DNA from: Zychaea mexicana
Lineage: Eukaryota > Mucoromycota > Mucoromycetes > Mucorales > Lichtheimiaceae
Assembly (NCBI RefSeq): GCF_025766255.1
Contig: NW_026516675.1
Coordinates: 1 to 64,000, forward strand
Direction of reading: 5' to 3'
DNA: 64,000 bases
The translations under genes were made by a program, and so were the position numbers. The first letter of the stretch is position 1, and each line of letters opens with the position of its first letter. The notes under the pieces are model-generated. The model ran no database searches, was not told the origin of the DNA, and saw nothing but the letters and a program-made list of their open reading frames with translations. This document shows, piece after piece, positions 34,263 to 58,798 of the stretch.

Positions 34263-35223
34263 ACATAATAAAAGTTGAAGTAGATAATATATTAAGTGTA
34301 GCAGAGCAGAATATATGAGTACTTAAGATTTTCAATTCAAGTCAAGACATAATAGAAGTTAAGCAGTACAAAGCCAATGTCAAGATATAGTAGTATGGCT
34401 GTTTCACTCGTGACAAGAAGCTTGTAGGCTAATGTACAGGAAATGGCAAGGGTGCGTCAGAGACTCACTGTGCGCATAAGCCTATTTTGCTGCTGTGGGA
34501 ACAGGGCCTGAGCGTTTCCCCTCATTTCACTTTACCTGGGTTGAGTTTGAAACAAATTGGAGGCTAGTGGCAGAGGTAGGTGGAAAGTGTGGGGTTTGTT
34601 AGCAGCAGCAGGGAGGAAAAAAACAATAACCAAAGATCCTTTTTTTTCTCATTACCATTCGCCATGGCAAATCAACAGCTTCGACGCACACTTGTAAATG
34701 GCTCCTACTCTCTTCACGATGAATAAAAAACAAAGAAAACAAAACGGCACAATCTACGGATTTATTGAAAAACGAAATGAAGATAACTGTTTTCTTAAAA
34801 AAAGCATGTGCTCAAGATTTATAAAGGAGTAGACCGCCGTTACTGCTGCTTAAAAAAACGCTGGATAAGTGAACAAGGGAAGGAAAAGGTTATTGGTTGT
34901 GCTTGAGGTATAGCTTTAGTGGAGATATGCCCATTCAGAATTACTGCTTCTTTGTCATTTTCTCTGTATATACTTGATGCACCATCTTGTACTAATCCAA
35001 CGTCAAACTTACGTGTGTAATACAACATCGTCCTCTACCTGCACAAACCATTCGTACTTACAATAAGAACAATGCAACAATCTTCTTCTCCATTACTCAT
35101 ACACAATTATATACAACATGACACTGATCCGCCATTGACTTGCAAAATATACAGCCTGACGCATTTATTTTTCACTATCATGTACGCCCATATTACATGA
35201 TGACGACTATAACGCCGGTCTTT

Positions 35224-36171: not shown

Positions 36172-37099
36172 GACCGGCGATATTAACGTTAGTATATGCA
36201 AAAGGTAAAAAGTAATCGCGTCAGGCTGTATATTTTGCAAGTCAATGGTGGATCAGCGTCATGTTGTATATAATTGTGTATGAGTAATGGAGAAGAAGAT
36301 TGTTGCATTGTTCTTATTGTGAGTACGAATGGTTTGTGCAGGTAGAGGACGATGTTGTATTACACACGTAAGTTTGACGTTGGATTAGTACAAGATGGTG
36401 CATCAAGTATATACAGAGAAAATGACAAAGAAGCAGTAATTCTGAATGGGCATATCTCCACTAAAGCTATACCTCAAGCACAACCAATAACCTTTTCCTT
36501 CCCTTGTTCACTTATCCAGCGTTTTTTTAAGCAGCAGTAACGGCGGTCTACTCCTTTATAAATCTTGAGCACATGCTTTTTTTAAGAAAACAGTTATCTT
36601 CATTTCGTTTTTCAATAAATCCGTAGATTGTGCCGTTTTGTTTTCTTTGTTTTTTATTCATCGTGAAGAGAGTAGGAGCCATTTACAAGTGTGCGTCGAA
36701 GCTGTTGATTTGCCATGGCGAATGGTAATGAGAAAAAAAAGGATCTTTGGTTGTTGTTTTTTTCCTCCCTGCTGCTGCTAACAAACCCCACACTTTCCAC
36801 CTACCTCTGCCACCAGCCTCCAATTTGTTTCAAACTCAACCCAGGTAAAGTGAAATGAGGGGAAACGCTCAGGCCCTGTTCCCACAGCAGCAAAATAGGC
36901 TTATGCGCACAGTGAGTCTCTGACGCACCCTTGCCATTTCCTGTACATTAGCCTACAAGCTTCTTGTCACGAGTGAAACAGCCATACTACTATATCTTGA
37001 CATTAGCTTTGTACTGCTTAACTTCTATTATGTCTTGACTTGAATTGAAAATCTTAAGTACTCATATATTCTGCTCTGCTACACTTAATATATTATCTA

Positions 37100-37585
37100 C
37101 TTCAACTTTTATTATGTCTTAGTTGACTAAAACTATGTCTAGGTTGACTATTATTATGTCCAGGTTGTCTATTATTCATGTTTAGATTGATTATTATTCT
37201 TGTCAGAATGATTTTCATTCATGTACAGATTGATTTTTATTTTGTCCAGATTGATTTTACTCATGTCCAGATCGATTTATATTCATGTCCAGGTCGATGT
37301 ATATTCATGTCCAGATCATTTTATATTCATGTCCAGATCGATTTTCATTCATGTCCAGCTCGATTTTCATTCATGTCCAGCTCGATTTTCATTCATGTCT
37401 AGCTCGATTTTCATTCATGTCCAGCTCGATTTTCAATCATGTCCAGCTCGATTTTCAATCATGTCTAGATCGATTTTCATTCATGTCCAGCTCGATTTTT
37501 ATTCATGTCCAGATCAATTATTATTCATGTCCAGATTAACTTTCATTCATGTCCACTCAGATTAACATTCATGTCCACTCTGCCT
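37100..37585 (+). repeat. Minisatellite at right arm end, 21-22-bp unit
   Basis: About 21 units of TCGATTTTCATTCATGTCC type. It has a few more units than the left arm, so copy number differs between arms. Confidence 0.85.
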
Positions 37586-38347: not shown

Positions 38348-39107
38348 ATATATACTTTATAATATACATATAATTACTATTATCCTTATTTTACTTGTTC
38401 TTCTTCTCTTTCTTATATTTTTACTCTCACTTATCAGCTATTATTAGCATTTTTATTAAATAAAAGGCACGATCTCATATATTAATAGTTACATATAAAA
38501 ATCAAATTTTGAAAACTTCATATTTTATAGGAAAAAGCTAATATGAAACTAATCTTGATGTACCAAACTTCAAATGCTTCGTTCTCGCTTTCTACTAGAC
38601 GCTAAATCACAATATAAACACCATCAGATAGAGCACGAGTCAACAGTTCTTCATCTTAATTTGGGACTCCGATGGTACACGTGATCATAGAAAACTGGAT
38701 TGGTTCTTATAACGTACAGTAACCTTTTAATTATCATATCATTATAGTTTTTAACTATATAATATTCTTGTTTATAATTAATAGAAATATTATTATCTTT
38801 ATCTTCATTACCAGTTTTTATATTTTCGTCAATTTCACTAATATCATTATTTTTGTTATTATGTTATTATTATTTGTTACACAAACACTTTCCTCCATAG
38901 AAAATAAATAATTATTTATTTTAGAAATTCAAATTCAATTTTTTAAATTATGCAAGAAAAAAATCGGAGTTTAAAATATGTACGGTAAACTATAATTCAA
39001 CCCTTTTGTTCCTCTCTCTTCTCATTGGCTATAGACTGATCTGCCAAAAAGTGACACGACATTAATACAATAAGAAAATTAATAAACACTAAAAAATTGA
39101 GTGCTCA
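38348..39107. other. AT-rich intergenic DNA
   Basis: No gene or repeat recognised in this 760-bp stretch up to the tRNA-Glu gene. Confidence 0.4.
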
Positions 39108-39179
39108 TTCCCCCACCGGGAATCGAACCCGGGCCACCTGTGTGAAAGACAGGGATCCTGACCACTGGACCATAGAGGA
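39108..39179 (-). tRNA. tRNA-Glu (anticodon UUC)
   Basis: A 72-nt gene on the minus strand. The acceptor TCCTCTA pairs with TGGGGGA (two G-U pairs). The anticodon stem CCTGT/ACAGG has the loop CTTTCAC (anticodon TTC). The T arm is CCCGG-GTTCGATT-CCCGG (B box). The A box is in TGGTCCAGTGGTCAGG. There is no intron and no encoded CCA. Its first 16 nt are repeated at each junction of the LINE array that starts at its 5' side. Confidence 0.93.
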
Positions 39180-39359
39180 GAGACATCTGTCGAGCATTGC
39201 GCGCGGCGAAAACCACCTCTTTTTATACTTTTCTTCACTCTGCACCCCCAAAAACTCGTCCTTTTTTCCGATCACCCCCCAAAAATTACGACCTCGAACT
39301 CGCCTCGCGTAACACCCGAGGCAACCGCCAATATTCCCACCTCACCACGTACAACAGCC

Positions 39360-41081
39360 ATGCCTGCATCACCTACAGCACCAGAATCGGCCATACGCCT
39401 CACATTAGCTTTGCCTATTAGAGCAAAACAGCGTGCTTCACAGCGGGCAACCCATATCCCCTCCCCTATCAAGAAGACCCCTTCCCCCATAGAAGGAAAT
39501 TCACAGCAAAAACGGCAAAAACACCGCACCACCCCTTCACCTACTACAACAGAAATTGCCACCCCCAACACCATCCATTCCGCAGATATGTTTATCAACG
39601 GCCAAGAGGTATCACCATACCCCCAGTCCGAACGCACCTGCAGCAACAGCCCCCTCACCGAACGCGGCACCGCCGCCCTTCAGCAACAACAGCAACAGCA
39701 AACCAACAACAACAACAACAACCAGCAAGAGCAAGAGCTCTTGTATAGCTCTCTGCATACATCACTCCCAGATACACAGGAGCAGGAGGATGCAGCATTG
39801 GTAACAACAACAACAACTACAACAGCAATCCCTCCCTGGTTCCTCGTGTTCCAGTAGAAAATTGCAGCCCACGATGAGCAATTAGAGCAAATGGCCGCTC
39901 TAATTAAAGAAAACAAGCAACTCCGGTCAGAATTAGCACTCGCTTATCAGCGTATTGCCGAGCTCGAGGGAGAACATCCCCCTATGCCACCAGCAGCAAC
40001 AATGACCGTTATGGATAGCACCCCTGAGTACGAAGATGATGAATGTCTTACAGGCACTATTGAGTCTGTACACGCGGGTACACCAGAATCTCGAGCTGTG
40101 TACCAGCAGCAAAAGCGTGCCCGTGAAGCACACTAAGAGCAAGATTGGGAGAAGCGTCTCACACGCCAGCTCAAGCTGATGGATCGCATGGACCAGCAGC
40201 AACAGCAAAAGCAACAAAAACAACAAAAGCAACAACAACCTGCACCTAACAACAACAGCAGCAAAAAGACGTATGCAGCAGCAGCCAGCAAAAACGTTAG
40301 CAGCAACAACAACAAGCAAAAGACCCGTCGTGTTGTGAAAACACTAACAGCAGCAATGGTGGCATGGGCCAGTCGTGGATTTGCCCCAATAGATCCTACT
40401 GCCGCACAAGGGTATACATTTGTGTACCTCAACAGCCCCCACCGCATGCGCCATAGTGAAGTACATAAACGCCTTGCTATCCTCAAGGTGCCACAGGCCC
40501 GCATTCTTGACGTCCACTTCCCTACTACTGGTATTGTAGGCCTATTGATCCATCAATCGTTCAAGAATGAGCTTGAGCAGCTACTGGTGCCAGGTAGCAT
40601 CAAATTTGTCGACTTTGATCCATTGTCACCTACTGTCATTAAGGATCAAAATCTCGAAACCATGACAGCAACGGAAAAGACAACAAAGGCAATCGATATC
40701 CATCAGAGACGCATTTACCACACATGCCTTCAAATGCCGCACACCTATCTTGGTAACGCAATCATGCGTTATTTCTGTGCCGACAGCTATGACGGGCCCC
40801 ATAAGCTACCTACGGAAATGCTGATTGAGTTCCAGAAGCTGCGCCCAGCACCACAATTCCGTCGTCGTAGGGAATTGACACCAGTAGAAGCAGCGTCAGC
40901 ATTCCTAGCACCAGCAACAAGCAACAAGGACGACGACGGCCGCAAGAACAACAGCGCCAAAAGCAGCAACAACAACATGGGAGAGGGAGAGGATGTTGAC
41001 ATGGGCAACATCTCTGCCAATAACTCTACCACCACCACCACCTCAAAAAACATCGAAGCCGCAGCAAAAGACAATAATTAA
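39360..41081 (+). pseudogene. LINE copy 1 ORF1, two in-frame stops
   Basis: A single frame of 574 codons from ATG 39360 (MPASPTAPESAIRL) to TAA 41079-41081. Breaks are TAG 39855-39857 (CAG in copy 3) and TAA 40134-40136 (CAA in copy 2). The protein is basic and Gln/Asn-rich at the N-terminus, with a coiled coil (MAALIKENKQLRSELALAY, IAELE), an acidic patch (PEYEDDECLTG), poly-Gln/Lys, and a conserved globular domain (MVAWASRGFAPIDPT, GYTFVYLNSPHRM, DVHFPTTGIVGLLIH) that may be the RNA-binding part. No CCHC knuckle is seen. The last codon overlaps the ORF2 start. Confidence 0.8.
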
Positions 41082-44000
41082 TGAGTGACACCATCAAGAT
41101 CGCTCAACTTAATGCAAATGGTATCGAAAGATCGCCAGATGTGTTAATTAATTATTGTATTGAAAATAACATTGATATTTTATTGCTAACGGAAACTAAA
41201 CTACTCGCTGGACGACTTACAACACCATGGACGCAATTTCATAATTATGCGTGGACTTCAGGCAACGCACGAGTCGGCTTTGGCGGGCTAACGCTGCTTG
41301 TGCGCCCTGATTTTCCTTACCATGTTCACCCTCACGACCATCCGAATCGCTACACCATCACCTGTACGATCGGACCCTACACCATCCACTGTCTCTACTT
41401 ACCTCCTTCTCTCTCCTTTCCCGACTACACCGCCACCATCCAACGCCTCACCATAGACAACAGCACCATAATCCTCGGCGACATCAACACTCGTCTTGGT
41501 GCACAGCTCGGCGATAACGACAGCACTTATCCTCGAGCAGGATTCCTGCAGCAATGGCTTGTTGACCATGGCATTGTTGTATAGAACGAAACACTCGCGT
41601 TCGGCAAACACACCTTCCACAAACCGAACGTTGGATCCAGCATCATCGACTTCTTCATCTCCTCACCTACTGCAGTGATATCACCTTCGCTCGTAGTAAG
41701 AGATGATTTGACGTTTGGATCCGATCATCACCTCTGCCAATTCGACTTCTTCCTCCACACACCAATTGACCGGTTGCCAGCTCCCAACGCGCCGCGCCAA
41801 CATTGGAAGCTACAGCGTTTGCATGAAGAAGATGTCCAGACGGTCTACATTGATGAGTTTACTCGCAATGTCGCACCGATTAGTGACGAGATACAGCAGT
41901 GTCTTGATCGCAATGAGCTGGACTTGGCGGCTATCGAACAGCTTGGCCAGCGTATCACTCAAGCCGTATACGAAGCGCTAGATGCAAGTGTCACTAGAGG
42001 GCAAGCCCGACCGAAGCAGTGGAAGTGGTTCTGGACCGCAGAGCTACAGAAGCTTGCTGACGAACGGCAGCAACGTTACAGTCGCTGGCGACATGCACCT
42101 GCCACCCTTGCACGAGTCACCCTGTGGAAGGAGTTCACCGATGCCCGAGACGAGCTGCGTATCGCCATCCGCCGTGCTCGCACTCGCCAATGGCGTGAAT
42201 TCTGTACCAAGATGCAACACAACGACCCATCCGAGGCCAACAGCGTCATCAAGAGCATGAGACGAAACTGCCAGAAAGGTGCCACGTTCTCGCATCCTCA
42301 AGGTCCCGCCCATGCTGCCGAAACAATGATCACTCATCTAGCTAGTGTCTTTGGCGGTGAGGTCTCTGACCCGCTGCAACAGTGCTACGATCAGCTGGAT
42401 GATGTTGGTGACGATCCGTTCTCACTAGAGCGTATTGTCATGGTGATCCACAAGGAGCTGCTAGGTCTTAAAGCACCTGGATCAGATCATATTCATGGTG
42501 AGATGCTAAAGCCGATTGCTCGTCCACTCACATCAGTGCTCTCCCCTTTTCTTCGTCTTTGTTGGTGCTGGTCGTATTTGCCTGCTGCTTGGCGCACTGC
42601 ACAGGTAGTACCGATCCACAAGAAAGGCAATCCATCCCTTGCGTCCAATTATCGGCCGATCAGTCTAACAAGCACGTTTCGTAAGATCGTCGAGCGGTGC
42701 TTGTTGCCAGTGCTGCTACAACAGATGCCTGCACTCGATGTAGCCCAAGGTGGGTTTCGGGCTCGTCGCGGTGCTCTCGACCAGGCGTTCAATTTACAAG
42801 TGTTGATGCGCCAATTCCAACGCCAACACGATCAGCCACCCGTTGTCGCGTTCCTAGATATCAAAGCGGCGTACGATTCTGTCGACCGTAACGTTATTTG
42901 GGGAGCGCTCACTGACCATCTGCAGCCAGCATTGCTTGAGTTGCTCAGGCATATGTTCAACGAGGTGTCGATCAGCGTCATCCTCAGCAACTACCAATCG
43001 CGTGCCATCCGTCCTCGTCGCGGTGTACTACAAGGCTCGATCCTTAGCCCGATCTTGTATGCCGTGTTCATCGACTCGCTGCCCAAGGTGCTACGACTTG
43101 GCAGCCGCCAACCACTGCTCATCCGCACTGTACCACTTGCTGATTACACTGAAGCATCTGCTCAGTTGCTGGAACGCCGCACCCTACGTGATCGTCGTCG
43201 CCAAGACACGGATATCTCCGTCATTAACTCGCTGCTGTATGCTGACGACGTGGCTATTTTCGGTTCTTCCGATGATGTACGCCAGCTGCTTACTATGGCA
43301 CAGTTGCACTCGGAACGGTATGGGTATCGATAGAGCCCTACCAAATGCCAGATCGTTAATGGCCAGCCTGGTGTCCAATATCGACTCTACGGTGAAGCCA
43401 TTGAACAAGTGCCCTGGTTCAAGTACCTTGGTATCCCGTTTACGGCAGAGGGCATCGACACCAACCGTTTGATCCAGACAAACGCTACCAAAACCATTAG
43501 CGCCATAGTTTTGCTTTGCAATATCGGCGCTCATCAATACAACTTTGGCCTCGGTCTCGCCCTGCGCCTGTATCGCAGCTTTGTTCGTCCTGTGCTGGAG
43601 TACGGCCTAGCAATCTTCACCCCAACCGCCACACAATATACCGCCCTCGAAAAGGTGCAGATTCGTTGCATTCGGTTAGCATTGAACGTTACCGGCCCTG
43701 CTGCCACCACACCAACAATCGTCCCCCTCCACCTTGCTGACTTGCCGTCAATCAAACTTCGAGTGCGTATCTTGCTGTTCAAGTTTTTGTGTCGTGCGTT
43801 CCGTTTGCCACCGTCAACCTTGCTCGCATGTGTCGTTTCTTCATTTCTTCGTCGCCATCACCCACCCGACTATTGGCGCGTCATGACAACAAATAAGCTA
43901 TGGGTAGACGAAAAAGAAGTAACTCGCCAAGCACCACTGCCACGCGACCCCATGCAGCACGTAATCGACAGTCACCACCAACAAGAATTGCAAAGCCGCC

Positions 44001-44464
44001 GCAACCGGTTCTCCACTGTGCGACGTGCTTTGCCGGAACGGAGATAGGATCCGATCCTGTTTCTGCCCGCCACCAATTTGGCTCGCCACCGCCTTGTCAA
44101 ATGGCGCATGCATTGGCTGCCATCATATCCGTTAAAGGATTGCCGCTGCAGCAAAGTGGGAGCCAACCGACGCCACTACACCAACGATTGTCCTCTTTTG
44201 GCACCAATGGTCGAGCAATTACGCAACAGTTTCCCTGGGCCTGTGCAAGACGACCAACATCTGCTGGATGCGGTCTTCAACAGCTTGCCAAACAAAGCAA
44301 CAGCACTCAAGAATGGCCATTGGCGATCTACATGGCCTGTGCTTCTGCTTACGCTCCGCGATATCGACATTTGCAGTCATCCGGATGCCACCTTTGATCC
44401 TGAACCTCATCCAAGGCAGGTCCTTGATGGGTTCTTTTCACCACCATCACCACCACCCACATAA
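41081..44464 (+). pseudogene. LINE copy 1 ORF2: endonuclease-RT, three TAG stops
   Basis: One frame of about 1127 codons from ATG 41081 (MSDTIKIAQLNANG). APE endonuclease: QLNANG, LLLTETK, IILGDINTRLG, GSDHHLCQF. RT: PVVAFLDIKAAYDSV, RGVLQGSILSPILY, LLYADDVAIFG (YADD). Near the C-terminus is a CCHC-like knuckle, DCRCSKVGANRRHYTNDC. Stops are TAG 41582-41584 (Trp in copy 2: VIWNETL), TAG 43331-43333 (YR*SPTKC, where LINE relatives have Trp) and TAG 44045-44047 (Trp in copies 2 and 3: RWDPI). All are TGG-to-TAG. Apart from these the frame is uninterrupted, so inactivation looks recent. Confidence 0.88.
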
Positions 44465-44811
44465 TCATTGCTAGTGCCCTTTTCTTTCCCCTAGCACACC
44501 ATCAACAACAACACTGCTTCTCTTATTACTTTGTGCCCTAGGCAGTTCATTCTATATTTTATATCTTTTATTTTCTTTTGTGTCGTTAGAAACTTTATAT
44601 CTATCAGTATCACCTCCCCCAGTCACCTCTCTTAGCTTACAGCCGGGTTTTTCTTCCCCTTTGAGGGTTTTCCCGCGCTCGTTCCACCACCTTTACCCCG
44701 CATTTTATATTCTTGTCACACCCTCCCTTTTGAAACAATGAGACCGGCAAATTGCCTAATGGATGTTGCCCTCGAGAGTCTCTTCCACCCTTTAATAAAA
44801 ATACGCTTTGA
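44465..44811 (+). other. LINE copy 1 3' UTR with conserved hairpin
   Basis: Contains GCCGGGTTTTTC..CCCTTTGAGGG..TTTTCCCG (44641-44675), able to form nested CGGG/CCCG and CCC/GGG stems, and GGCAAATTGCC (44745-44755). Both are kept in copies 2 and 3 (50291, 56227). Probably the 3' signal read by the reverse transcriptase. Confidence 0.5.
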
Positions 44812-44991
44812 ACTGGACCATAGAGGAGAGACATCTGTCGAGCATCGCGCGCGGGCGAATCCCTTTTTTATACTTTTCTTCATCTGCACCCCCAAAAACC
44901 TGTCCCTTTTTCCCGATCCCCCCAAAAATACGACTCGAACTCGCCGCGTAACACCCAAAAACCCAATATTCCCACCACCAGCACAACAGCT

Positions 44992-46689
44992 GTGCCTGCA
45001 TCCCTACAGCACCAGAATCGCATACGCCTCGCCCTAGCACCACCCATTAGTGCAAAGCGGCGTGCCTCAGAGCGTGCTACACGCATCCCCAACCCCATCA
45101 ACAAATCCCCTCCACCTACAGAAGGGAATTCCCAGCAAAAACGGCAAAAACGCCTCATAGCCACAAAAATAGATACACCACCACACAACCCCAACAACAA
45201 CAAAACAGAGATGGTAGTCATCAATGGCCATGAGGTCACACCATCATCCCAATATGGCCGTACACCTGAAAATAGCCCACTTGCTGCACAGGGTACCGCC
45301 ACTATCGAGCAGCAAAGGCAACAACAGCAGCAACCACAAAACAACAGCAACCAGCAAGAGCAGCAGTCCTCATTGTTTAGTGCTCTACATACAACACTCC
45401 CTGATACCCAGACCCCACCACCATCTGCCACACCTGAAATTCCTGCTTGGGGGCTTGCCCTCCAACAAAAAGTAGAGCGCATGGAAGCTCTGCTTGAGGA
45501 AAATAAAAAACTAGTGGAAGAAAACAACAGCCTCCGCTCTGAGCTAGATTCAGCGCTCATGCGTATTGCCGAGCTCGAAACAGAACGTTCTTCGGTACTA
45601 CCAGCAACAACAACACCTATTATGGATAGTGCCCCTGAGTATGAAGACGAATGTCTCACCGGCGCTATTGAATCCATTCACGCGGGCACACAAGAGTCGC
45701 GAGCCTTGTACCAGCAAGAAAAGCGTGCTCGTGAAGCCCAACAGCAGCAGGATAGTGAGAAGCGGTTAGAACGCCAGCTGAAGCTGATGGATCGTATGGA
45801 TCAGCAGCACCAACAAAAGCAACAAAAACAACAAAAACCCGCAACAACCAGCAACAACAAAAAAACGTATGCAGCGGCAGCTAGCAAAAACGTCAGCAGC
45901 AGCAACAAACAAAAGAACCGTCATGTGGTAAAAGTACCCACAGCAGCAATGGTGGCCTGGGCCAGCCGCGGATTTAGACCTATAGACGCAACAGCACCAC
46001 AAGGTTACACTTTTGTGTACCTTAATAGTCATCACCGCATGCCACACAGCGAAGTGCGCAAACGTCTCACAGCCATGTCGATCCCCCAAACGCGTGTACT
46101 CGACATTCACTTCCCTACCAAAGGCATTGTTGGATTATTGATCCATCAATCCTTTGAAGCAGAGCTCAAGGCCAAGCTATCCGCAAAGGTGACATTAAAA
46201 CGGTGGATTTCGATCCAATTGCCCCTGCTGTTTTAAAGGATCTAAGCTCGAAACCCTCATAGCAACAGAAAAAGAAGCAAAGGCAAAGGACATCCACCAA
46301 CGCCGCATTTTCCGCACGTGTTTGCAATTGCCCCAAAAACACCTTGGCTATGCCATTGTGCGTTACTTTGCGGACGACAGTTACACTGGCCCCCATAAGG
46401 TGCCCGCCACACTCTTTGCCGAGTTTCAAAAGCTCAGGCCACCACCAACAATCCGCCGTCGCCAATTGACAGCAGCAGAAGCAGCAGCAGCATTGGCACA
46501 GCAGCAACATCAAGGAGCAACATGGACGACGACGGCCGCAAGGATGACGACGGCCGCAAGGACGACAGCGCCAAGCAACAACAACAACAACAACAACAAC
46601 AAGAGGCCGTGGATGAGGATGATGATATGGCAGAGTCATCCAGCATCCCTCCAACAACAACGAAGCCTCCGCGTCAAACAATAATTAAT
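44992..46689 (+). pseudogene. LINE copy 2 ORF1, frameshifted
   Basis: Open for 414 codons from ATG-equivalent 44992 (MPASLQHQNRIRLAL) to 46236. This includes the coiled coil (MEALLEENKKLVEENNSLRS) and the globular domain (MVAWASRGFRPIDAT, DIHFPTKGIVGLLIH). A frameshift near 46190 moves the rest (LGYAIVRYFADDSY..) into another frame, and a second small indel returns it before the TAA at 46687-46689, which overlaps ORF2's ATG. The intact N-terminal half is the best view of the family's ORF1. Confidence 0.78.
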
Positions 46690-49600
46690 GAGTGATCACA
46701 TCAAGATTGCTCAACTCAATGCATGTGGCATCAACAAATCGCCGGATGTATTGATTAATTATTGTACTGACAAAAATATCGATATTTTATTGCTGACCGA
46801 AACACATCTTCTATCTGGACAACTCAACACACCATGGACGCAAATACACAATTATGCGTGGAGATCAGGCAACGCGAGAGGGGGCTTTGGCGGGCTATCG
46901 CTCCTGATCCGTCCTGATTTTCCTTTCCATGTTCATCCTCATCCACATCCAAATGTTATACACTCACCTGCAGCATTGGACCATACACCCTCCATTGTCT
47001 CTACCTACCACCACTTACACTCCCAACCTCCGATTCACCTCTCTCCTTAACCAACTCGACATCAACGACACCACCATCGTGCTCGGCGATCTCAACGTAC
47101 GTCTTGGGCAACAAGTTGGCGATCACGGCACCAATGCTCGCGCACCATCATTCCAGCAATGGGTCCAAGACCACGGGCTCGTTATTTGGAATGAAACATT
47201 GGCATACGGCATCATGACGCACTATCGACCGAACATTGGATCTAGTCTCATTGACTATTTCCTCTCACCGCCAAACGCTATTGTTGGACCCGCCATGACA
47301 ATAGAACGTGAGGTAACGTTTGGATCCGACCACCACCTTTGCCAATTCGACTTCTACACGCATGCACCACTTGACCGCTGCCAGCTCCCAATGCGCCGCG
47401 TCAACACTGGAAACTGCAGCGTCTCAAGGAGGACGACGTCTATGCGGTCTATGTTGATGAGTTTACTCGCACATTGAACCGATTAGTGACGAGATCCAAT
47501 ACCATCTCGATCGCAATGACATAGACACGGACGCACTCGAACAGATCGGCCAAAGTATCACCAACGCCATCTACGATGCACTAGATCGCAGCGTCACCCG
47601 AGGCATCGCCCGACCGAAGCAGTGGAAGTGGTTCTGGACTGAAGAACTACAGAAGCTTGCTGATGAACGGCAACAAAAGTATAGTCGCTGGCGACATGCA
47701 CCTCGCAACCTCGAACGATCCGCATTGTGGAAAGAGTATACTGATGCTCGTGAAGCAATGCGTCTTGCAATCCGTCGTGCACGTACCCGTCAATAGCGCG
47801 AATTCTGTACGACGATGCAACGAAACAATGATGCCGAAACTAACATGATCATCAAGAGGATGCGCAGAAACCGTCAACGACCAACGACGTACTCGCATCC
47901 TGCCGGTCCTGCCCAAGCCGTTGAAACGATGATCACGCACCTAGCTAGTGTTTTTGGCGGTGAAAACACTGAGCCACCACGCCCACGATATGATCAGCTT
48001 GTCGATGTCGGTGACGATCCCTTTGATGTCGAACGTGTCGTACAAGTGATCCAAAAGGAGTTGCCTGCTCGAAAAGCACCCGGATCCGATCATATCACTG
48101 GTGAGATGCTCAAGCCGATTGCTCGTCCCCTCGCGTCGGTGCTCTCACCATTTCTTCGTCTATGTTGGAGCTGGACTTACGTGCCTTGTGCTTGGCGTAC
48201 AGCACAAGTCGTACCTATTTACAAAAAGGACGATCCAACATTAGCATCAAACTACCGGCCAATCAGCCTCACCAGCACGTTTCGAAAGATCACCGAACGT
48301 TGCCTGTTACCCGAACTACTGCGCCAAATGCCTGCACTCGACATAGCCTAAGGTGGGTTTCGTGCTCGCCGCGGTGCTCTCGATCAGGCTTTCAACCTGC
48401 ATATGTTGATGCGCAATTACGAGCGCGAATTCGGTATCAAACCTGTCGTGGCCTTCTTGGATATCGCCGGTGCGTACGATTCTGTTCGCCGTGAGGTGAT
48501 ATGGGGCGCACTCGAAGACCATCTGCAGCCAGCACTGCTTGACTTGCTCAAGCACATGTTCAACGACGTCTCAATCACAGTCATCCAGCAGAATTTCGAG
48601 TCGCGTGCAATTCGTCCTCGTTGTGGTGTTTTGCAAGGCTCGATCTTAAGCCCGATTTTGTACGCAGTATTTATCGATTCGCTGCCAAAAATACTACGTA
48701 CAAATTGCGCGCCTCAAACGGTGTCGGTTAACAGCGTCCCTCTGGATAACCACACCGAAGCATCAGCCCAACGTCTCCCCCGCATCCTTCACCACCGCAA
48801 CACCAACCGCCAAGATACAGCAACGACCGCCATCAACACGTTGTTGTATACCGATGATGTAGCTATCTTTGGTTCGGCCCAAGAAGTTCGACAGCTGCTC
48901 ATCATGGCACAAATGCACTCGGATCACCTCAGATATCGTTAGAAGCCGGCCAAGTGTCAAGTGATTAATGGTGGTAACGCTCGCTATACGTTGTATGGTG
49001 AGGAAATCGAAAAAGTCGCTTGGTTCAAGTACCTCGGCGTGCCATTCAACAGCAATGGCATCGACAAACACGACTGCTTCAGCACAACGCACCAAAACCA
49101 CCACTGCCATGACAACACTGCGTAGTATTGGCGCACACCAGTACGACTTTGGTCTCGGTCTCTCGCTGCGGTTATATCGTACGTTCGTTCGCCCTGTGCT
49201 CGAGTATGGTTTGTCAATTGTTCACCTACATGCCGATCATAAAAAAGTGTTAGAACAAGCTCAAAAAAGGTGCATTCGCTTAACGCTGAATGTCACTGAG
49301 CCAACCGCCACCACACCAACTATAATTCCTCTTCACCTCGCCGACCTCCCCGACATCACTCTTCGCGCCAGTATCTTGCAATTCAAGTTTCTGTGCCGTG
49401 CACATGCATTACCACCCTCAACATTTCTGGCCAGTGTCGTTGATTCCTTGCTTCGTCAATACCACCCTGACGATGTGTGGAGAATAATGACAGGCAATAA
49501 GTTGTGGAAAGAGTACAAGAGTTGCAACGTCAACAACCGCCGCCACGCCACCCAATGCAAAAAGCCATTGACAGTCACTTGGGTCACGAGCTGGCATCAC

Positions 49601-50126
49601 GGCAACGCCGTTTTCCCACAGTGGCTCGTGCTTTGCCGGAACGGCGCTGGGATCCGATCTTGTTCCTGCCAGCAACAAATCTGGCTCGCCACCGCTTGGT
49701 AAAATGGCGTATGCACTGGCTCCCTTCCTTTCCTCTTAAGGATTGCCGTTGTGGCAAGAAAGAAGCCAACCGCCGCCACTACGAGTCCGACTGCCCGCTG
49801 CTTGCACCAATGATCCAACAACTACGCAGCAGCTACAACACACCTGTGCCTGAGGACTGTCTTCTAATTGACGTGCTCCTCAACGCTCTACCAAGAAAAG
49901 CAAGGCACTCAAGCATGGTCACTGGCGTCGCACATGGCCATTGCTCTTACACACACTTCGCGACATCGACATCTGTAGCCATCCAGATGGCGATTTTGAT
50001 CCCGAACCCGATCCTGGCTGGTCCTGGACGAGGTACTTTTACCACCACCACCATCATCATCACAGCCACAACAACAACCATCCACCACCAACAACAACAA
50101 CACTGGCTAGTGCTCATCATGCCTAG
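46688..50126 (+). pseudogene. LINE copy 2 ORF2, multiple frameshifts and stops
   Basis: Starts at ATG 46688 (MSDHIKIAQLNACGI). Endonuclease (LLLTETH, VLGDLNVRLG, GSDHHLCQF) and RT (VVAFLDIAGAYDSV, CGVLQGSILSPILY, LLYTDDVAIFG) can be followed through several frames. The catalytic motif reads YTDD rather than YADD. Stops include TAG at about 47796 (Trp in copy 1), TAA at about 48350 (Gln in copy 1) and TAG at 48940-48942 (the same YR* position as in copies 1 and 3). Frameshifts lie near 46965, 47480, 49080 and 49900. The C-terminal knuckle (DCRCGKKEANRRHYESDC) is well kept. Confidence 0.82.
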
Positions 50127-50658
50127 CATTACAAAACAACAACATCATCATCATCATAGTTCCCCCTGTTCTTCTTGCCACTGGCAATTCTTTATATATT
50201 CTATCTTTATTTCCTTTGTCGTGTAGCTAGAAATCTTGTATGTATTATCTCTTCATTCGTACCACCACCCCTCCAGTCTCATATCCCAACAGCCGGGTTT
50301 TTCTTCCCCTTTTGAGGGTTTTCCCGCGCTTGTTACACAGTCCCTTTCCCCACATTTTTAATCTTAAATCTGTGTAACTCCCGATCGCCGTGCTTCACAG
50401 TAGCCGGCAAATTGCCTTAAGGATGTTGCCCTTGAGTGCTACTTCCACCCTTTAATAAAAAATACTCTTTGAACTGGACCATAGAGGAGAGACATCTGTC
50501 GAGCATCGCGCGCGGCAAAAACCACCTCTTTTTATACTTTTCTTCACTCTGCACCCCCAAAAACTCGTCCTTTTTTCCGATCACCCCCCAAAAATTACGA
50601 CCTCGAACTCGCCTCGCATAACACCCGAGGCAACCGCCAATATTCCCACCTCACCACG

Positions 50659-52382
50659 TACAACAGCCGTACCTGCATCACCTACAGCACCAGAATCGGC
50701 CATACGCCTCACATCGGCTTTGCCTATTAGAGCAAAACGGCGTGCTTCACAGCGGGCAACCCATATCCCCTCCCCTATCAAGAAGACCCCTTCCCCCATA
50801 GAAGGAAATTCACAGCAAAAACGGCAAAAACGCCGCACCACCCCTTCACCTACTACAACAGAAATTGCCACCCCCAACATCATCAATTCCACGGATATGT
50901 TTATCAACGGCCAAGAGGTATCACTATACCCCCAGCCCGAACGCACCCGCAGCAACAGCCCCCTCGCCGAACGCGGCACCGCCGCCCTTCAGCAACAACA
51001 GCAACAGCAAACCAACAACAACAACAACAACCAGCAAGAGCAAGAGCTCTTGTATAGCTCTCTGCATACATCACTCCCAGATACACAGGAGCAGGAGGAT
51101 GCACATTGTAACAACAACAACAACAACAACAGCAATCCCTCCCTGGTTCCTCGCGTTCCAGCAGAAAATTGCAGCCCACGATGAGTAATTAGAGCAAATG
51201 GCCGCTCTAATTAAAGAAAACAAGCAACTCTGGTCAGAATTAGCACTCGCTTATCAGCGTATTGCCGAGCTCGAGGGAGAACATCCCCCTGTGCCACCAG
51301 CAGCAACAATGACTGTTATGGATAGCACCCTGAGTACGAAGATGATGAATGTCTTACAGGCACTATTGAGTCCGTACACGCGGGTACACCAGAATCTCGA
51401 GCTGTGTACCAGCAGCAAAAGCGTGCCCGTGAAGCACACTAAGAGCAAGATGGGAGAAGCGTCTCACACGCCAGCTCAAGCTGATGGATCGCATGGACCA
51501 GCAGCAACAGCAAAAGCACAAAAACAACAAAAGCAACAACACCTGCACCTAACAACAACAGCAGCAAAAAGACGTATGCAGCAGCAGCCAGCAAAAACGT
51601 TAGCAGCAACAACAACAAGCAAAAGACCGTCGTGTTGTGAAAACACTAACAGCAGCAATGGTGGCATGGGCCAGTCGTGGATTTGCCCCAATAGATCCTA
51701 CTGCCGCACAAGGGTATACATTTGTGTACCTCAACAGCCCCCACCGCATGCGCCATAGTGAAGTACATAAACGCCTTGCTATCCTCAAGGTGCCACAGGC
51801 CCGCATTCTTGACGTCCACTTCCCTACTACTGGTATTGTAGGCCTATTGATCCATCAATCGTTCAAGAATGAGCTTGAGCAGCTACTGGTGCCAGGTAGC
51901 ATCAAATTTGTCGACTTTGATCCATTGTCACCTACTGTCATTAAGGATCAAAATCTCGAAACCATGACAGCAACGGAAAAAACAACAAAGGCAATCGATA
52001 TCCATCAGAGACGCATTTACCACACATGCCTTCAAATGCCGCACACCTATCTTGGTAACGCAATCATGCGTTATTTCTGTGCCGACAGCTATGACGGGCC
52101 CCATAAGCTACCTATGGAAATGCTGATTGAGTTCCAGAAGCTGCGCCCAGCACCACAATTCCGTCGTCGTAGGGAATTGACACCAGTAGAAGCAGCGTCA
52201 GCATTCCTAGCACCAGCAACAAGCAATAAGGACGACGACGGCCGCAAGACAACAGCGCCAAAAGCAGCAACAACAACATGGGAGAGGGAGAGGATGTTGA
52301 CATGGGCAACATCTCTGCCAATAACTCTACCACCACCACCACCTCAAAAAACATCGAAGCCGCAGCAAAAGACAATAATTAA
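50659..52382 (+). pseudogene. LINE copy 3 ORF1, many single-base indels
   Basis: Same protein as copy 1 ORF1, but the start region reads ACAGCCGTACCTGC instead of having ATG, and the frame is broken by about eight single-base losses between 51100 and 52300. Recognisable blocks are QQKRQKRRTTPSP, MAALIKENKQLWSELALAY and MVAWASRGFAPIDPT. It ends with the TAATG overlap at 52380-52384. The clustered one-base losses could be assembly errors. Confidence 0.75.
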
Positions 52383-55300
52383 TGAGTGACACCATCAAGA
52401 TCGCTCAACTTAATGCAAATGGTATCGAAAGATCGCCAGATGTGTTAATTAATTATTGTATGAAAATAACATTGATATTTTATTGCTAACGGAAACTAAA
52501 CTACTCGCTGGACGACTTACAACACCATGGACGCAATTTCATAATTATGCGTGGACTTCAGGCAACGCACGAGTCGGCTTTGGCGGGCTAACGCTGCTTG
52601 TGCGCCCTGATTTTCCTTACCATGTTCACCCTCACGACCATCGAATCGCTACACCATCACCTGTACGATCGGACCCTACACCATCCACTGTCTCTACTTA
52701 CCTCCTTCTCTCTCCTTTCCCGACTACACCGCCACCATCCAACGCCTCACCATAGACAACAGCACCATAATCCTCGGCGACATCAACACTCGTCTTGGTG
52801 CACAGCTCGGCGATAACGACAGCACTTATCCTCGAGCAGGATTCCTGCAGCAATGGCTTGTTGACCATGGCATTGTTGTATAGAACGAAACACTCGCGTT
52901 CGGCAAACACACCTTCCACAAACCGAACGTTGGATCCAGCATCATCGACTTCTTCATCTCCTCACCTACTGCAGTGATATCACCTTCGCTCGTAGTAAGA
53001 GATGATTTGACGTTTGGATCCGATCATCACCTCTGCCAATTCGACTTCTTCCTCCACACACCAATTGACCGGTTGCCAGCTCCCAACGCGCCGCGCCAAC
53101 ATTGGAAGCTACAGCGTTTGCATGAAGAAGATGTCCAGACGGTCTACATTGATGAGTTTACTCGCAATGTCGCACCGATTAGTGACGAGATACAGCAGTG
53201 TCTTGATCGCAATGAGCTGGACTTGGCGGCTATCGAACAGCTTGGCCAGCGTATCACTCAAGCCGTATACGAAGCGCTAGATGCAAGTGTCACTAGAGGG
53301 CAAGCCCGACCGAAGCAGTGGAAGTGGTTCTGGACCGCAGAGCTACAGAAGCTTGCTGACGAACGGCAGCAACGTTACAGTCGCTGGCGACATGCACCTG
53401 CCACCCTTGCACGAGTCACCCTGTGGAAGGAGTTCACCGATGCCCGAGACGAGCTGCGTATCGCCATCCGCCGTGCTCGCACTCGCCAATGGCGTGAATT
53501 CTGTACCAAGATGCAACACAACGACCCATCCGAGGCCAACAGCGTCATCAAGAGCATGAGACGAAACTGCCAGAAAGGTGCCACGTTCTCGCATCCTCAA
53601 GGTCCCGCCCATGCTGCCGAAACAATGATCACTCATCTAGCTAGTGTCTTTGGCGGTGAGGTCTCTGACCCGCTGCAACAGTGCTACGATCAGCTGGATG
53701 ATGTTGGTGACGATCCGTTCTCACTAGAGCGTATTGTCATGGTGATCCACAAGGAGCTGCTAGGTCTTAAAGCACCTGGATCAGATCATATTCATGGTGA
53801 GATGCTAAAGCCGATTGCTCGTCCACTCACATCAGTGCTCTCCCCTTTTCTTCGTCTTTGTTGGTGCTGGTCGTATTTGCCTGCTGCTTGGCGCACTGCA
53901 CAGGTAGTACCGATCCACAAGAAAGGCAATCCATCCCTTGCGTCCAATTATCGGCCGATCAGTCTAACAAGCATGTTTCGTAAGATCGTCGAGCGGTGCT
54001 TGTTGCCAGTGCTGCTACAACAGATGCCTGCGCTCGATGTAGCCCAAGGTGGGTTTCGGGCTCGTCGCGGTGCTCTCGACCAGGCGTTCAATTTACAAGT
54101 GTTGATGCGCCAATTCCAACGCCAACACGATCAGCCACCCGTTGTCGCGTTCCTAGATATCAAAGCGGCGTACGATTCTGTCGACCGTAACGTTATTTGG
54201 GGAGTGCTCACTGACCATCTGCAGCCAGCATTGCTTGAGTTGCTCAGGCATATGTTCAACGAGGTGTCGATCAGCGTCATCCTCAGCAACTACCAATCGC
54301 GTGCCATCCGTCCTCGTCACGGTGTACTACAAGGCTCGATCCTTAGCCCGATCTTGTATGCCGTGTTCATCGACTCGCTGCCCAAGGTGCTACGACTTGG
54401 CAGCCGCCAACCACTGCTCATCCGCACTGTACCACTTGCTGATTACACTGAAGCATCTGCTCAGTTGCTGGAACGCCGCACCCTGCGTGATCGTCGTCGC
54501 CAAGACACGGATATCTCTGTCATTAACTCGCTGCTGTATGCTGACGACGTGGCTATTTTCGGTTCTTCCGATGATGTACGCCAGCTGCTTACTATGGCAC
54601 AGTTGCACTCGGAACGGTATGGGTATCGATAGAGCCCTACCAAATGCCAGATCGTTAATGGCCAGCCTGGTGTCCAATATCGACTCTACGGTGAAGCTAT
54701 TGAACAAGTGCCCTGGTTCAAGTACCTTGGTATCCCGTTTACGGCAGAGGGCATCGACACCAACCGTTTGATCCAGACAAACGCTACCAAAACCATTAGC
54801 GCCATAGTTTTGCTTTGCAATATCGGCGCTCATCAATACAACTTTGGCCTCGGTCTCGCCCTGCGCCTATATCGCAGCTTTGTTCGTCCTGTGCTGGAGT
54901 ACGGCCTAGCAATCTTCACCCCAACCGCCACACAATATACCGCCCTCGAAAAGGTGCAGATTCGTTGCATTCGGTTAGCATTGAACGTTACCGGCCCTGC
55001 TGCCACCACACCAACAATCGTCCCCCTCCACCTTGCTGACTTGCCGTCAATCAAACTTCGAGTGCGTATCTTGCTGTTCAAGTTTTTGTGTCGTGCGTTC
55101 CGTTTGCCACCGTCAACCTTGCTCGCATGTGTCGTTTCTTCATTTCTTCGTCGCCATCACCCACCCGACTATTGGTGCGTCATGACAACAAATAAGTTAT
55201 GGGTAGACGAAAAAGAAGTAACTCGCCAAGCACCACTGCCACGCGACCCCATGCAGCACGTAATCGACAGTCACCACTGGGGGGTAAGTCTTAGCATTAT

Positions 55301-56050
55301 GATTTTAGCAAAATGATTATTAGCTAAAAAGTTATAAGTAATATAATTTTTAAATAAATTTAATAAATCATGAAATTAATTTTTTGTTAAAAAAATAATT
55401 TCTCAACCCTTATGATTATTCTCAATCATTAAGTTTAGGAAAAATCAGGCTAGGAGGAACGACGACGCCCCCGGAGTGAATGAAATGAACAGAGCTTGAC
55501 AGTATAATAAGATATCATAATATTGTTATTTATAACAATATTATTGATATTGTTTATACTTCACCAACAAGAATTGCAAAGCCGCCGCAACTGGTTCTCC
55601 ACTGTGCGATGTGCTTTGCCGGAACAGAGATGGGATCCAATCCTGTTTCTGCCCGCCACCAATTTGGCTCGCCACCGCCTTGTCAAATGGCGCATGCATT
55701 GGCTGCCATCATATCCATTAAAGGATTGCTGCTGCGGCAAAGTGGGAGCCAACCGACGCCACTACACCAATGGTTGTCCTCTTTTGGCGCCAATGGTCAA
55801 GCAATTACGCAACAGTTTCCCTGGGCCTGTGCAAGACGACCAACATCTGCTGGATGCAGTCTTCAACAGCTTGCCAAACAAAGCAACAGCACTCAAGAAT
55901 GGCCATTGGCGATCTATATGGCTCGTGCTTCTGCTTACGCTCCGTGATATCGACATTTGCAGTCATCCAGATGCCACCTTTAATCCCGAACCTCATCCAA
56001 GGCAGGTCCTTGATGGGTTCTTTTCACCACCATTACCACCACCTACATAA
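52382..56050 (+). pseudogene. LINE copy 3 ORF2, stops and an insertion
   Basis: ATG 52382. Two one-base deletions (about 52461 and 52643) break the endonuclease frame. From 52974 to 54632 it is open and nearly identical to copy 1 (FLDIKAAYDSV, LLYADDVAIFG). TAG at 52881 and TAG 54630-54632 are shared with copy 1. After HVIDSHH (55277) an AT-rich insertion intervenes, and coding resumes at 55562 (QQELQSRRNWF, ALPEQRWDPILF, DCCCGKVGANRRHYTNGC) to 56050. The third copy-1 stop is TGG here. Confidence 0.85.
55278..55561. mobile_element. AT-rich insertion in LINE copy 3
   Basis: 284 bp absent from copies 1 and 2, flanked by CAC (55275-55277 and 55562-55564) as a possible 3-bp TSD. It begins TGGGGGGTAAGTC and ends TTTATACTT. 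Its right half (CTTGACAGTATAATAAGATA, then ATTGTTATTTATAACAAT) resembles 12976-13040. No clear TIRs and no gene. Confidence 0.65.
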
Positions 56051-56397
56051 TCATTGCTAGTGCCTTTTCTTTCCCCTAGCACACCATCAACAACAACACC
56101 ACTTCTCTTATTACTTTGTGCCCTAGGTAGTTCATTCTATATTTTATATCTTTTATTTTCTTTTGTGTCGTTAGAAACTTTATCTCTATCAGTATCACCT
56201 CCCCCCAGTCACTTCTCTTAGCTTACAGCCGGGTTTTTCTTCCCCTTTAAGGGTTTTCCCGCACTCGTTCCACCACCTTTACCCTGCATTTTATATTCTT
56301 GTCACACCCTCCCTTTTGAAACAATGAGACCAGCAAATTGCCTAATAGATGTTGCCCTCGAGAGTCTCTTCCACCCTTTAATAAAAATACGCTTTGA

Positions 56398-56910
56398 ACT
56401 GGACTATAGAGGAGAGACATCTGTCGAGCATTGCACGCGGCGAATTTGAAGCCTTTTTATAACTTTTTCTTCGCTTGCACCCCCAAAAACTTGTCTTTTT
56501 TTCCCACCCTCCCCCAAAAAAACACGACATCGAAAATTTCGCCTGTGACACCCGAACAACCGAGCATCCCTACATCACTGCACACAACAGTAGGGCACCC
56601 ATCACCAATAGTACAAGAATCCGCAGTACGCCTCGATCTAGCACCACCCATTACTGCAAAGCGGCGTGCCTCAGAGCGTGCTACATGCATCCCCAACCCT
56701 ATCAACAAATCCCCTTTACCCATAGAAGGGAATTCACAGCAAAAATGGCAAAAACGCCTCCTAGCCACGAAAAACGAAACACCACCACACAAACCCAACA
56801 ACAATATAGAAGGGATGGTAGTCATCAACAGCTATGAGGTCATACCATCACCCCACTATGTCCGCATGCTTGAAAATAGTCCGCTTGCTACACAAGGTAC
56901 CACTACTATA
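56398..56910 (+). mobile_element. Site-specific LINE, array copy 4, 5' fragment
   Basis: Begins at the fourth junction (ACTGGACTATAGAGGA) and carries the 5' UTR and the start of ORF1 (RLDLAPPITAKRRASERA, NPINKSPLPIEGNSQQK). It is closer to copy 2 than to copy 1. It stops abruptly in ACTACTATAATAAAACC, where unrelated AT-rich DNA begins. Confidence 0.82.
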
Positions 56911-58798
56911 ATAAAACCTATAAGAAATATTTATTTAACCTAGTTATACAGTTTATTTTTGTTATTAATTATAGGCAACACTAATTAAAATTAATCTAAA
57001 AATAAGCTAAGTTTTAAAAAGGTTTATGTTAAATACATACCATATGGATTAAACACTATGTCTTTTTGGGATTAAAAAGGGCATCGTCTCTTGAACTTAA
57101 GATTTTTAGATGTTATTCTTTTTTCATATCAATATGGAAATGGTGGAAGATCTAACGTTTAAGTGATATGGATTAACTCCCATAGCCGCCTCAGTACCCT
57201 TTATTTTTAACTTATGATATCCGTGTAACTTCCTAATATAGTAACAGGGTTGAAACGTTCATATAGTAAATCAGATGCGTAAATTTTGATTTCATCAACT
57301 CCGAAGCTCCGACGTTGTCACATCATGGAGAAATAAGGAATAAATGTGTAAAAAAATAGAAAAATGAGAGAAAATAATTTTTTTCACCAAATCAGGCATA
57401 ATAATCAGTACTAGGGTTTTGATATACTGCTTCCATGCATAGTGACTATGCCTAGTCGCAGTTTTGAGCCAATCGGAGAACCCCGAGTCTCATATAGAAT
57501 TAGTAGATTTGAGGTACATAATGATGTGAAGTTGATGGCTCAACTGACACATGTGGTGTTTGGAAAAGGATAAAAGGTAGTATATAAAAAAAAGGGAAAA
57601 GGTAAAAAGGGTTCAGAAGAATAGGGTTGATATGTAGTAGAATACAAATAAACAGAATTCAGAAAATAAAAGGAATCAGGGATACGATGAATGCGAAATA
57701 CAAATATACAGAAACATGATTACAATAACAGCAAGTTCTACTTCTAGTGTCAATTGTCAATCCATGAATATATGTCTGAAAATCATTGGGTTAATCCCCT
57801 TTTATACACCTTGTCAAGAGGCTCAATCCATAACAATTAATTTTACTATATACAGTAAATTAATTTTAGTTCAGGATTTCACAGTCAAGCTAGCCTTCGT
57901 CTAAGTGTTCCTCAGCTAGAGGAGGGAAATGCTCACTACTGTTACGTCGCCTATGATTCAATAAAGTTTTTACAAAACTTTATTAATTCTTAAGAATTAA
58001 AAACATTTATAATAATTAAAAAATCTAAGAATTAAAATTCTTGATTTTTTTAAACTATTTTAATATTTTTATATTCTTATACCCTAAGGAATTAACTATA
58101 AACAATAATATAAGGATAATTAATAATTATCTCTTATATTTAATTGTTATAGTTTAATTCCCTAACTAGGCGCACTCGGCCAAGAACGACACCAGGCACA
58201 GAGGACAACGATCTCTATTGGGTAGTTTGGACGGAGTAGAAGATGGAAAAATAGGGAAATGGATATAGCAATGTCTATACAACGGATGGAAACATAAGAG
58301 AGGGAGTACGATGGAAAATAAGAGGGGCCATGAAATTACAGGGTCATGGTAACAAGGTGAGGGTAACAAGGAAAAGGACAACGGAGAATAATATAAACTG
58401 CGCAGGGCAGGTAGCATGAGTACGTAAGAGAGTATAATATGGAAAATAAGGACGGATACAAATATAAGGGACAGGTCCCGTTAAAAGAAGCATAAAGAAG
58501 AAATAATATCTGGTGCCTATGGCCGGTACGATTTAGAGTTGAAGGAACGTAAAATGATGCGAGAGGAAATGACAGAATTATTTACAGAAAAAGAGCTAAG
58601 GGAAATAAGAAAAATAAGGGAACTAACAGAAAGGGAAAAAGAAGTATAATAATCCCCGGATGGGGGGTGCGAGAAGAATTGTGGGGAGTTGGGGGAAACC
58701 TGTGGATCGGATAGCTCATGATTAGCCGAAGCCAGAACTCGTTCGTCGGAAAAGAATGAGGCTGCAAAGCCTCACACACTTCGTGTCAGATGTCTCCA
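56911..58798. other. AT-rich intergenic DNA with repeat traces
   Basis: No supported gene in 1.9 kb. About 57890-57960 matches, inverted, the repeat at 12913-12980. An 88-bp imperfect palindrome lies at 58083-58170. Purine-rich GGAAAATAAG sequence follows. Confidence 0.4.
58083..58170. repeat. Imperfect 88-bp palindrome
   Basis: CCTAAGGAATTAACTATAAAC... mirrored by ...GTTATAGTTTAATTCCCTAA; hairpin-forming, origin unknown. Confidence 0.5.

Follow-up and report, generated by a model that had tools for sequence, protein, structure and literature searches.

A head-to-tail LINE array at a tRNA-Glu gene of Zychaea mexicana and related elements at other tRNA genes

A LINE array beside a tRNA-Glu gene

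R1, a long interspersed nuclear element (LINE) with an apurinic-type endonuclease (APE), has a fixed cut in a multicopy RNA gene, the 28S ribosomal DNA (rDNA), and leaves a short duplication. The LINEs described here, which are stacked at a tRNA-Glu gene in a 64,000-nucleotide stretch of the fungus Zychaea mexicana (contig NW_026516675.1, positions 1 to 64,000; henceforth, the window), resemble R1 in these traits and differ from it in that R1 keeps to a single rDNA site. Further described elements share features with the array, as far as the cited sections of the respective reports go. NLTR-A of Dictyostelium purpureum, listed in the L1 clade, is likewise a non-long-terminal-repeat (non-LTR) element located just upstream of tRNA genes (PMC5006619, PMC5911963), and TRE5-A of Dictyostelium discoideum is an APE-type LINE which also lies on the upstream side, in the opposite orientation to the tRNA (PMC5911963). 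NeSL-1_TV (tRNA-Pro), LIN15_SM (tRNA-Arg) and LIN25_SM (tRNA-Glu) are non-LTR elements reported to be specific for a single tRNA gene (PMC4640811); Dada DNA transposons reside in tRNA genes as well, several of them at nucleotides 8-13 over the A box (PMC8869645), and MoTeR and FoTeR are site-specific non-LTR elements in fungi (PMC12857005). In the table of tRNA-adjacent retrotransposons of a 2018 review, the non-LTR ones come from dictyostelids only (PMC5911963), and Ty3-type LTR elements of Rhizopus often co-localise with tRNA genes (PMC2699053). Our literature search, whose scope did not extend to Repbase notes and most subscription journals, returned no description of a LINE that inserts within the tRNA genes of a fungus.

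With a probability of roughly 0.9, the array in the window was made by a site-specific APE-type LINE inserting in tRNA-Glu genes by target-primed reverse transcription. An earlier note on this DNA had described four LINE units arranged head to tail in one orientation and anchored on a single complete tRNA-Glu gene, and both observations were reproduced. The complete gene, a tRNA-Glu (UUC) detected by ARAGORN and scoring 61.9 bits with the Rfam tRNA model, occupies positions 39108-39179 of the minus strand at the left end of the array, and the units lie on the plus strand, running away from its 5' end. Unit 1 (39180-44811, 5632 bp) and unit 3 (50489-56397, 5909 bp) belong to subfamily Glu-1, unit 2 (44828-50472, 5645 bp) belongs to subfamily Glu-2, and unit 4 is a 5' fragment only (56414-56915, 502 bp, right edge set by eye). 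Unit 1 terminates in CTTTAATAAAAATACGCTTTGA without poly(A), and the 3' end of the Glu units reads TTTAATAAAA...TTTGA, also without poly(A).

The junctions are marked by ACTGGACCATAGAGGA, the reverse complement of tRNA-Glu nucleotides 1-16, which overlap what we take to be the position of box A. This 16-mer is exact at 39164 (39164-39179, minus strand, within the complete gene), at 44812 (44812-44827, plus strand, units 1/2) and at 50473 (50473-50488, plus strand, units 2/3), and has one mismatch at 56398 (56398-56413, plus strand, units 3/4). Its four occurrences in the window compare with a chance expectation of 0.01, and four were reached in none of 100 shuffles. The earlier note had given 39164, 44812, 50473 and 56398 as the starts of the units; they are starts of the 16-mer, while the LINE 5' ends lie at 39180, 44828, 50489 and 56414. 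Its assignment of the junction repeat to tRNA-Glu nucleotides 1-16 held at all four places, except that the duplication proper comprises 15 nt, as the 16th base is unassignable in Glu.

In unit 1, the frame of open reading frame (ORF) 1 (40179-41081, plus strand, 300 aa listed) overlaps with its stop codon the start of the ORF2 frame (41081-44464, plus strand) in the sequence TAATG. In the two frames searched, ORF1 gave no match that reached the cut-off of a Pfam family. ORF2 encodes an apurinic-type endonuclease and a reverse transcriptase (RT), and is interrupted in unit 1 by in-frame stops at 41582, 43331 and 44045. On contig C215, the ORF2 of the first copy is open over 1128 aa, so that uninterrupted relatives exist. 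The RT family RVT_1 was matched with E-values of 9.5e-24 in the C215 ORF2 and 2.6e-19 in unit 1. In the C215 copy, Exo_endo_phos_2 (E 1.5e-8) and Exo_endo_phos (E 2e-6) also scored above the cut-off, with the apurinic-type endonuclease placed N-terminal to the RT; at E-values up to 0.1, neither an RNase H nor a restriction-like nuclease family of Pfam was detected in this ORF2. Given this RT and endonuclease together with target duplication and 5' truncation, the array elements are APE-type non-LTR retrotransposons (LINEs).

PDB matches were to L1 ORF2p and to R2-type proteins, with similar E-values. Of the 69 ORF2 relatives obtained from 7997 scored candidates, most are unnamed; the named ones come from Lichtheimia, Circinella, Phascolomyces, Rhizopus, Mucor and Umbelopsis. 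No relative was confirmed on viral contigs. The search for known ribozymes covered the unit 1 5' end (39080-39700) rather than the 5' ends of the other families; within it only the tRNA passed the Rfam gathering score, and four weak matches stayed below theirs.

Ends of related LINEs at tRNA genes across the genome

The genome search covered 50.3 Mb in 305 contigs. Twenty-five tRNA genes, of ten amino acids, were found to carry a related APE-type LINE at their 5' end (nucleotide 1): seven Glu, five Tyr, three Gln, two each of His, Pro and Leu, and one each of Lys, Thr, Asp and Phe. The earlier note's designation of tRNA-Glu as the target is thus correct for the Glu genes and too narrow, since tRNA genes of nine other amino acids are hit too. 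Nor did the note cover the saturation of the preferred genes, the probable gene conversion between units 1 and 3, or the related families at non-tRNA sites.

A pattern of 27 bases from the LINE 5' end (group A), allowing up to three mismatches, had 18 genome-wide matches, 11 of which lie at nucleotide 1 of an intact tRNA and seven at array junctions behind tRNA nucleotides 1-15. The reversed pattern, used as a control, had no match in the genome. The 11 anchors comprise five Glu, three Tyr and one each of Lys, Asp and Phe genes, with 0-3 extra nucleotides before the tRNA; the Asp and Phe LINEs are short 5' remnants, as judged by eye. In reply to the question raised by the earlier note, namely whether most other copies are inserted at unrelated sites, all 18 Glu-type 5' ends stand at tRNA nucleotide 1 or at an array junction. 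A second 5' motif (group B) had 20 matches, six at tRNA nucleotide 1 (Gln on C68, C106 and C129, Pro on C302, His on C168 and Leu on C261). Of the others, three His copies and one Leu copy stand at array junctions, and ten have no tRNA in the sequence seen. Further anchored copies were located at Glu (C98, C42), Leu-CAA (C157), Thr (C273), His (C262), Tyr (C84, C179) and a second Pro gene on C302. With 18 of 18 group-A ends at one tRNA position, and with ten of 20 in group B, where the other ten belong to other or unassigned families, these are site-specific LINEs of tRNA genes.

Occupancy was determined by a pattern search for gene 5' halves, with up to two mismatches, so that the counts refer to pattern-matching genes rather than to all isodecoders; Leu, Thr, Asp and Phe genes were left out of the count, and in the genome-wide search with the Rfam tRNA model, 63 out of 1904 candidates were scored. 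A LINE was present at 7/7 canonical Glu, 5/5 Tyr, 2/2 His and 2/2 Pro-UGG genes, at 2/3 Gln-CUG and 1/2 Gln-UUG genes, and, counting full 5' ends only and not truncated copies, at one of nine Lys genes. The preferred targets are therefore near saturation. An eighth tRNA-Glu (UUC) gene, at C238:73810-73882, has another acceptor stem, TCCGCATTGG, and the 79 nt seen upstream of it contain no LINE; it may represent an escape variant. Apart from short low-scoring matches, this gene and the two empty Gln genes match LINE loci within the tRNA only, and none of the three gave a LINE protein match.

At the other end of the elements, 16 LINE 3' ends were read in the tRNA families (Glu 5, His 3, Tyr 3, Leu 3, Thr 1, Pro 1). 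All of them run into tRNA nucleotides 1-15, 12 being exact to the local gene and four having one difference (the units 3/4 junction of the window, C236, one His, and one Leu on C168, where the own anchor gene was not seen and the C157 gene served for comparison). The 16th base differs from the tRNA in the Tyr, Thr and Leu junctions and is ambiguous in Glu, His and Pro, which is why the duplication is set at 15 nt. These ends point to a priming nick on the tRNA sense strand after position 15 (...A-R^T), which would fall inside box A, as placed by the consensus that we assume for it. For the C89, Lys and C254-Tyr copies, the stretches examined did not include a recognisable 3' end. On C302, a 3' junction considered as the gene's original flank was dropped: another LINE 5' motif follows about 130 bp on, and the stretch between resembles window positions 57540-57640 by eye.

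The repeated 16 nt could alternatively belong to a tRNA-headed element, which would carry them along instead of duplicating them at the target. The presence of the same 16 nt at every Glu junction of the window agrees with this, as does an inner piece on C236 that differs from the local anchor. However, within one family the piece changes with the locus and equals the local tRNA. A Tyr-family LINE at the Thr gene on C273 is a complete insertion, in which an intact tRNA-Thr is followed by the LINE, by nucleotides 1-15 of its host tRNA-Thr and then by a non-LINE flank, and Leu-family copies at Leu-CAA and Leu-AAG (C157, C261) have two differing duplications, each from their own gene. A carried piece is thereby rejected for the Tyr and Leu families. 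Further, three 5'-truncated copies (C84, C179 and C302:28338) are broken within ORF2 and still stop, with the broken end, at tRNA nucleotide 1, the Pro copy C302:28338 having a Pro duplication at its 3' end. Altogether, a carried tRNA piece is scarcely credible. Duplications that match their own host tRNA fit target-primed insertion and are not predicted by duplication of a single locus. In line with this and with the 18 of 18 5' ends, the earlier note's proposal of repeated target-primed insertion at one tRNA site, each event rebuilding the target, is supported.

History of the array

Unit 2, which the earlier note had found to differ from units 1 and 3 far more than these do from each other, has an identity of 70-82% with the two. 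Between units 1 and 3, identity amounts to 99.0% across 4.8 kb and to 95.9% in the final 0.84 kb. The nearest copy of unit 2 found is on C68, at another tRNA-Glu gene (98.7% over 2951 bp), and units 1 and 3 group with the C215 and C236 copies; two subfamilies have therefore inserted at one gene. Unit 4 is 80.6% identical to unit 2 and 75% to unit 1.

Growth of the array by tandem duplication or unequal crossing-over after a single insertion was weighed against these relationships. In its favour, in-frame stops in ORF2 are common to units 1 and 3, two having been seen at corresponding places in unit 3, and the middle 4 kb of the two units are nearly identical. Further, the units of the His array on C168 are evenly spaced (5674 bp, twice), and its neighbours are more alike (97.6% and 97.8%) than its ends (95.7%); tandem duplication may be partly responsible there. 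Against such a history, units 1, 2 and 4 are diverged lineages, in agreement with the note's view that this is not one tandem duplication; the closest copy of unit 2 lies on another contig, and insertions with duplications of their own differing tRNAs exist. Duplication of a dimer, (1,2) to (3,4), was rejected, since units 2 and 4, only 80.6% alike, cannot represent a recent copy of (1,2) to (3,4). The differences between units 1 and 3 are also unevenly distributed, with 22/798 sites in the first 800 nt, 16/3992 in the middle and 32/831 at the end, and the near-identical tract stops at a 287-bp insert of unit 3 (about 55275-55561, strand not assigned) that is absent from unit 1. This mosaic of divergent ends and a conserved middle suggests conversion between two separate copies, and units 1 and 3 probably inserted separately and were later homogenised in part by gene conversion; another possible source of their likeness is that one defective copy was copied by trans-mobilisation. 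We therefore regard tandem duplication as an unlikely origin of the array.

Repeats that are 97-99% identical can be misassembled, and an assembly artefact was considered for this reason. Nevertheless, the adjoining units belong to different subfamilies, their junctions differ in detail, and similar arrays at Glu, Tyr and His genes were assembled on C215, C236, C262, C297 and C168, all of which makes an artefact highly improbable.

Several observations weigh against repeated insertion as the general explanation. On C236, the anchor tRNA-Glu is of the UUC form and the inner duplication of the CUC form, for which simple re-insertion is insufficient without later tRNA conversion or recombination between Glu loci. 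The truncated Tyr copies C84 and C179 are broken at the same point and may go back to a single event that was then duplicated. Of the six Glu 3'-end matches, five are array junctions and one is partial, and none represents the intact 3' end of an outermost copy on unique flank. At Leu-CAA (C157), about 10 extra nucleotides, partly repeating tRNA nucleotides 1-8, separate the LINE from the tRNA. Many of the at least 76 RT matches have no located 5' end, 5' ends having been located for part of them only; those without include C231, C254:7882, C130, C36, C20, C207 and other weaker ones. Half of the group-B motif matches (C240, C302:26861, C224, C269, C277, C45, C212, C46, C55 and C87, mostly with about 150-180 nt of upstream sequence seen) are not beside a tRNA, nor are the 5' ends of two related-family copies (C89, C19), and tRNA targeting is therefore not universal in the clade. 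Of these ten motif matches, those on C269, C277 and C302 have an RT match of the clade within a few kb, and the remaining ones may not be LINEs of this clade.

Other repeats were observed in the neighbourhood of these tRNA genes. In the window, 1307-nt arms that are 97% complementary (33869-35175 and 36205-37511) form a large inverted repeat with arrays of 22-bp repeats at its outer ends, which looks like a separate mobile element beside tRNA-Glu. A 61-bp stretch downstream of tRNA-Glu (39001-39061) recurs at varying distance near three other LINE/tRNA loci (L043 on C297; L057 and L068 on C261) and on C89 (L050), where no tRNA was found; it may be the end of an LTR-type element. Finally, a repeat beginning with CACTGGAGTT(G/A)G occurs in a LINE 5' remnant about 55 bp from tRNA-Phe on C242 (L079 at 1556, minus strand) and in a Leu-family LINE 5' end on C168 (L054 at 1131), and may be a second element favouring tRNA upstream DNA.

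Target choice, proposed mechanism and comparison with known systems

An RT tree of 71 rows, which comprised this genome's copies and the ORF2 relatives and was midpoint-rooted, with long-branch or composition warnings on some outer rows, resolved six well-supported families: Glu-1 (units 1 and 3, C215, C236), Glu-2 (unit 2 and C68, beside a Circinella protein), Tyr/Thr/Lys, Gln/Pro, His and Leu. Copies with full 5' ends at non-tRNA sites were placed in the sister group of the Tyr family (C89, C19) and near the His and Leu families (C277), the latter with a duplication of about 14 nt, GTATTYAACAAAAT, as judged by eye. These non-tRNA relatives (C277, L058 and L098; C89, L050; C19, L093) are useful controls for the loss or gain of targeting.

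When the targets were compared, with Asp and Phe left out and the pairs being few and non-independent, tRNA nucleotides 8-16 agreed on average at 7.9/9 positions within families (eight pairs) and at 5.6/9 between families (47 pairs), and nucleotides 1-7 at 3.5/7 and 2.1/7, respectively. After removal of same-amino-acid pairs, the five remaining pairs gave 7.6/9 and 2.8/7. Judging from the higher agreement within families over nucleotides 8-16, the target appears to be determined mainly by box A and its surroundings. The empty Glu gene on C238 has the same nucleotides 9-16 as the other Glu genes, from which the acceptor-stem side may count as well in targeting by the Glu family.

Targeting might instead depend on tethering to RNA polymerase III (Pol III) factors, as proposed for TRE5, with box A being merely exposed there and not read as DNA. 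All targets are Pol III genes, a single family hits several tRNAs, and the TRE5-A ORF1 protein binds TFIIIB subunits, according to the cited part of the review (PMC5911963). By contrast, the cut is fixed to about one base, unlike the 40-54 bp window of TRE5, and both the closer within-family agreement over nucleotides 8-16 and the sparing by Glu LINEs of the single tRNA-Glu with another acceptor stem suggest sequence reading. Tethering in place of sequence reading thus appears rather doubtful, and the two may act together.

In the mechanism that we propose for target-primed insertion, the first nick would be made on the tRNA sense strand after nucleotide 15 (A14-R15, within box A), and the freed 3' end would prime cDNA synthesis, which would start at the LINE RNA 3' end. 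With the other strand cut at about nucleotide 1, the new LINE would come to lie between a complete tRNA gene and the old upstream flank, now headed by the 15-nt duplicate. Each new copy would land beside the tRNA and push older copies outward, giving a head-to-tail array, and the sister families would act alike at Tyr(/Lys/Thr), Gln/Pro, His and Leu genes. As the tRNA gene is rebuilt, the target would be open to another hit; stacking would follow from this rebuilding and, with the preferred genes near saturation, would be the expected outcome.

tRNA-Glu is essential, and since seven of eight Glu genes are flanked by LINEs, the flanked genes are likely active. Read on the tRNA strand, the TATA-like stretch TATAAAAAG is exact in 14 of the 18 group-A copies, 40-48 nt from the LINE end, and the 5'-truncated copies lack the LINE end that bears it. 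Tentatively, one may imagine a LINE clade whose families, by reading box A, have shared out the host tRNA genes and filled the preferred ones to such an extent that canonical Glu, Tyr, His and Pro (UGG) tRNAs are made from LINE-fronted genes. The conserved TATAAAAAG 5' end would then serve as a portable Pol III upstream element that maintains the activity of the rebuilt gene, parasite and gene being mutually dependent.

If the proposed mechanism is true, this LINE system would cut essential genes within box A and yet leave them intact, and a saturated, self-rebuilding target would explain how LINE arrays form. Close LINE families with different tRNA targets in one genome would allow the evolution of target choice to be tested by comparing endonucleases and box A sequences, and would supply a set of candidate enzymes with which DNA could be placed at tRNA genes. 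A further question is how essential tRNA genes function once their upstream region has been replaced.

Going by the cited sections of the reports, the known tRNA-targeting LINEs differ from this one in enzyme or site. In contrast to NLTR-A, the element described here abuts nucleotide 1, where it duplicates 15 nt of the tRNA, a trait that NLTR-A may share, and the RNase H that follows the RT in NLTR-A has no counterpart in the C215 ORF2 among families at E-values up to 0.1. TRE5-A inserts about 40-54 bp upstream of the tRNA, without a cut in the gene (PMC5911963), whereas the distances here are 0-3 nt (11 anchors) and about 10 nt at Leu-CAA, and the duplication lies inside the gene. NeSL-1_TV and the LIN elements, the latter from planaria, are grouped with restriction-like-endonuclease relatives of the NeSL clade (PMC4640811), unlike the apurinic-type enzyme and fungal host of the present LINEs. 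Dada elements are DNA transposons that disrupt tRNA genes (PMC8869645), while here the gene is rebuilt, and MoTeR and FoTeR, the site-specific non-LTR elements of fungi, have a restriction-like endonuclease and a telomere target (PMC12857005).

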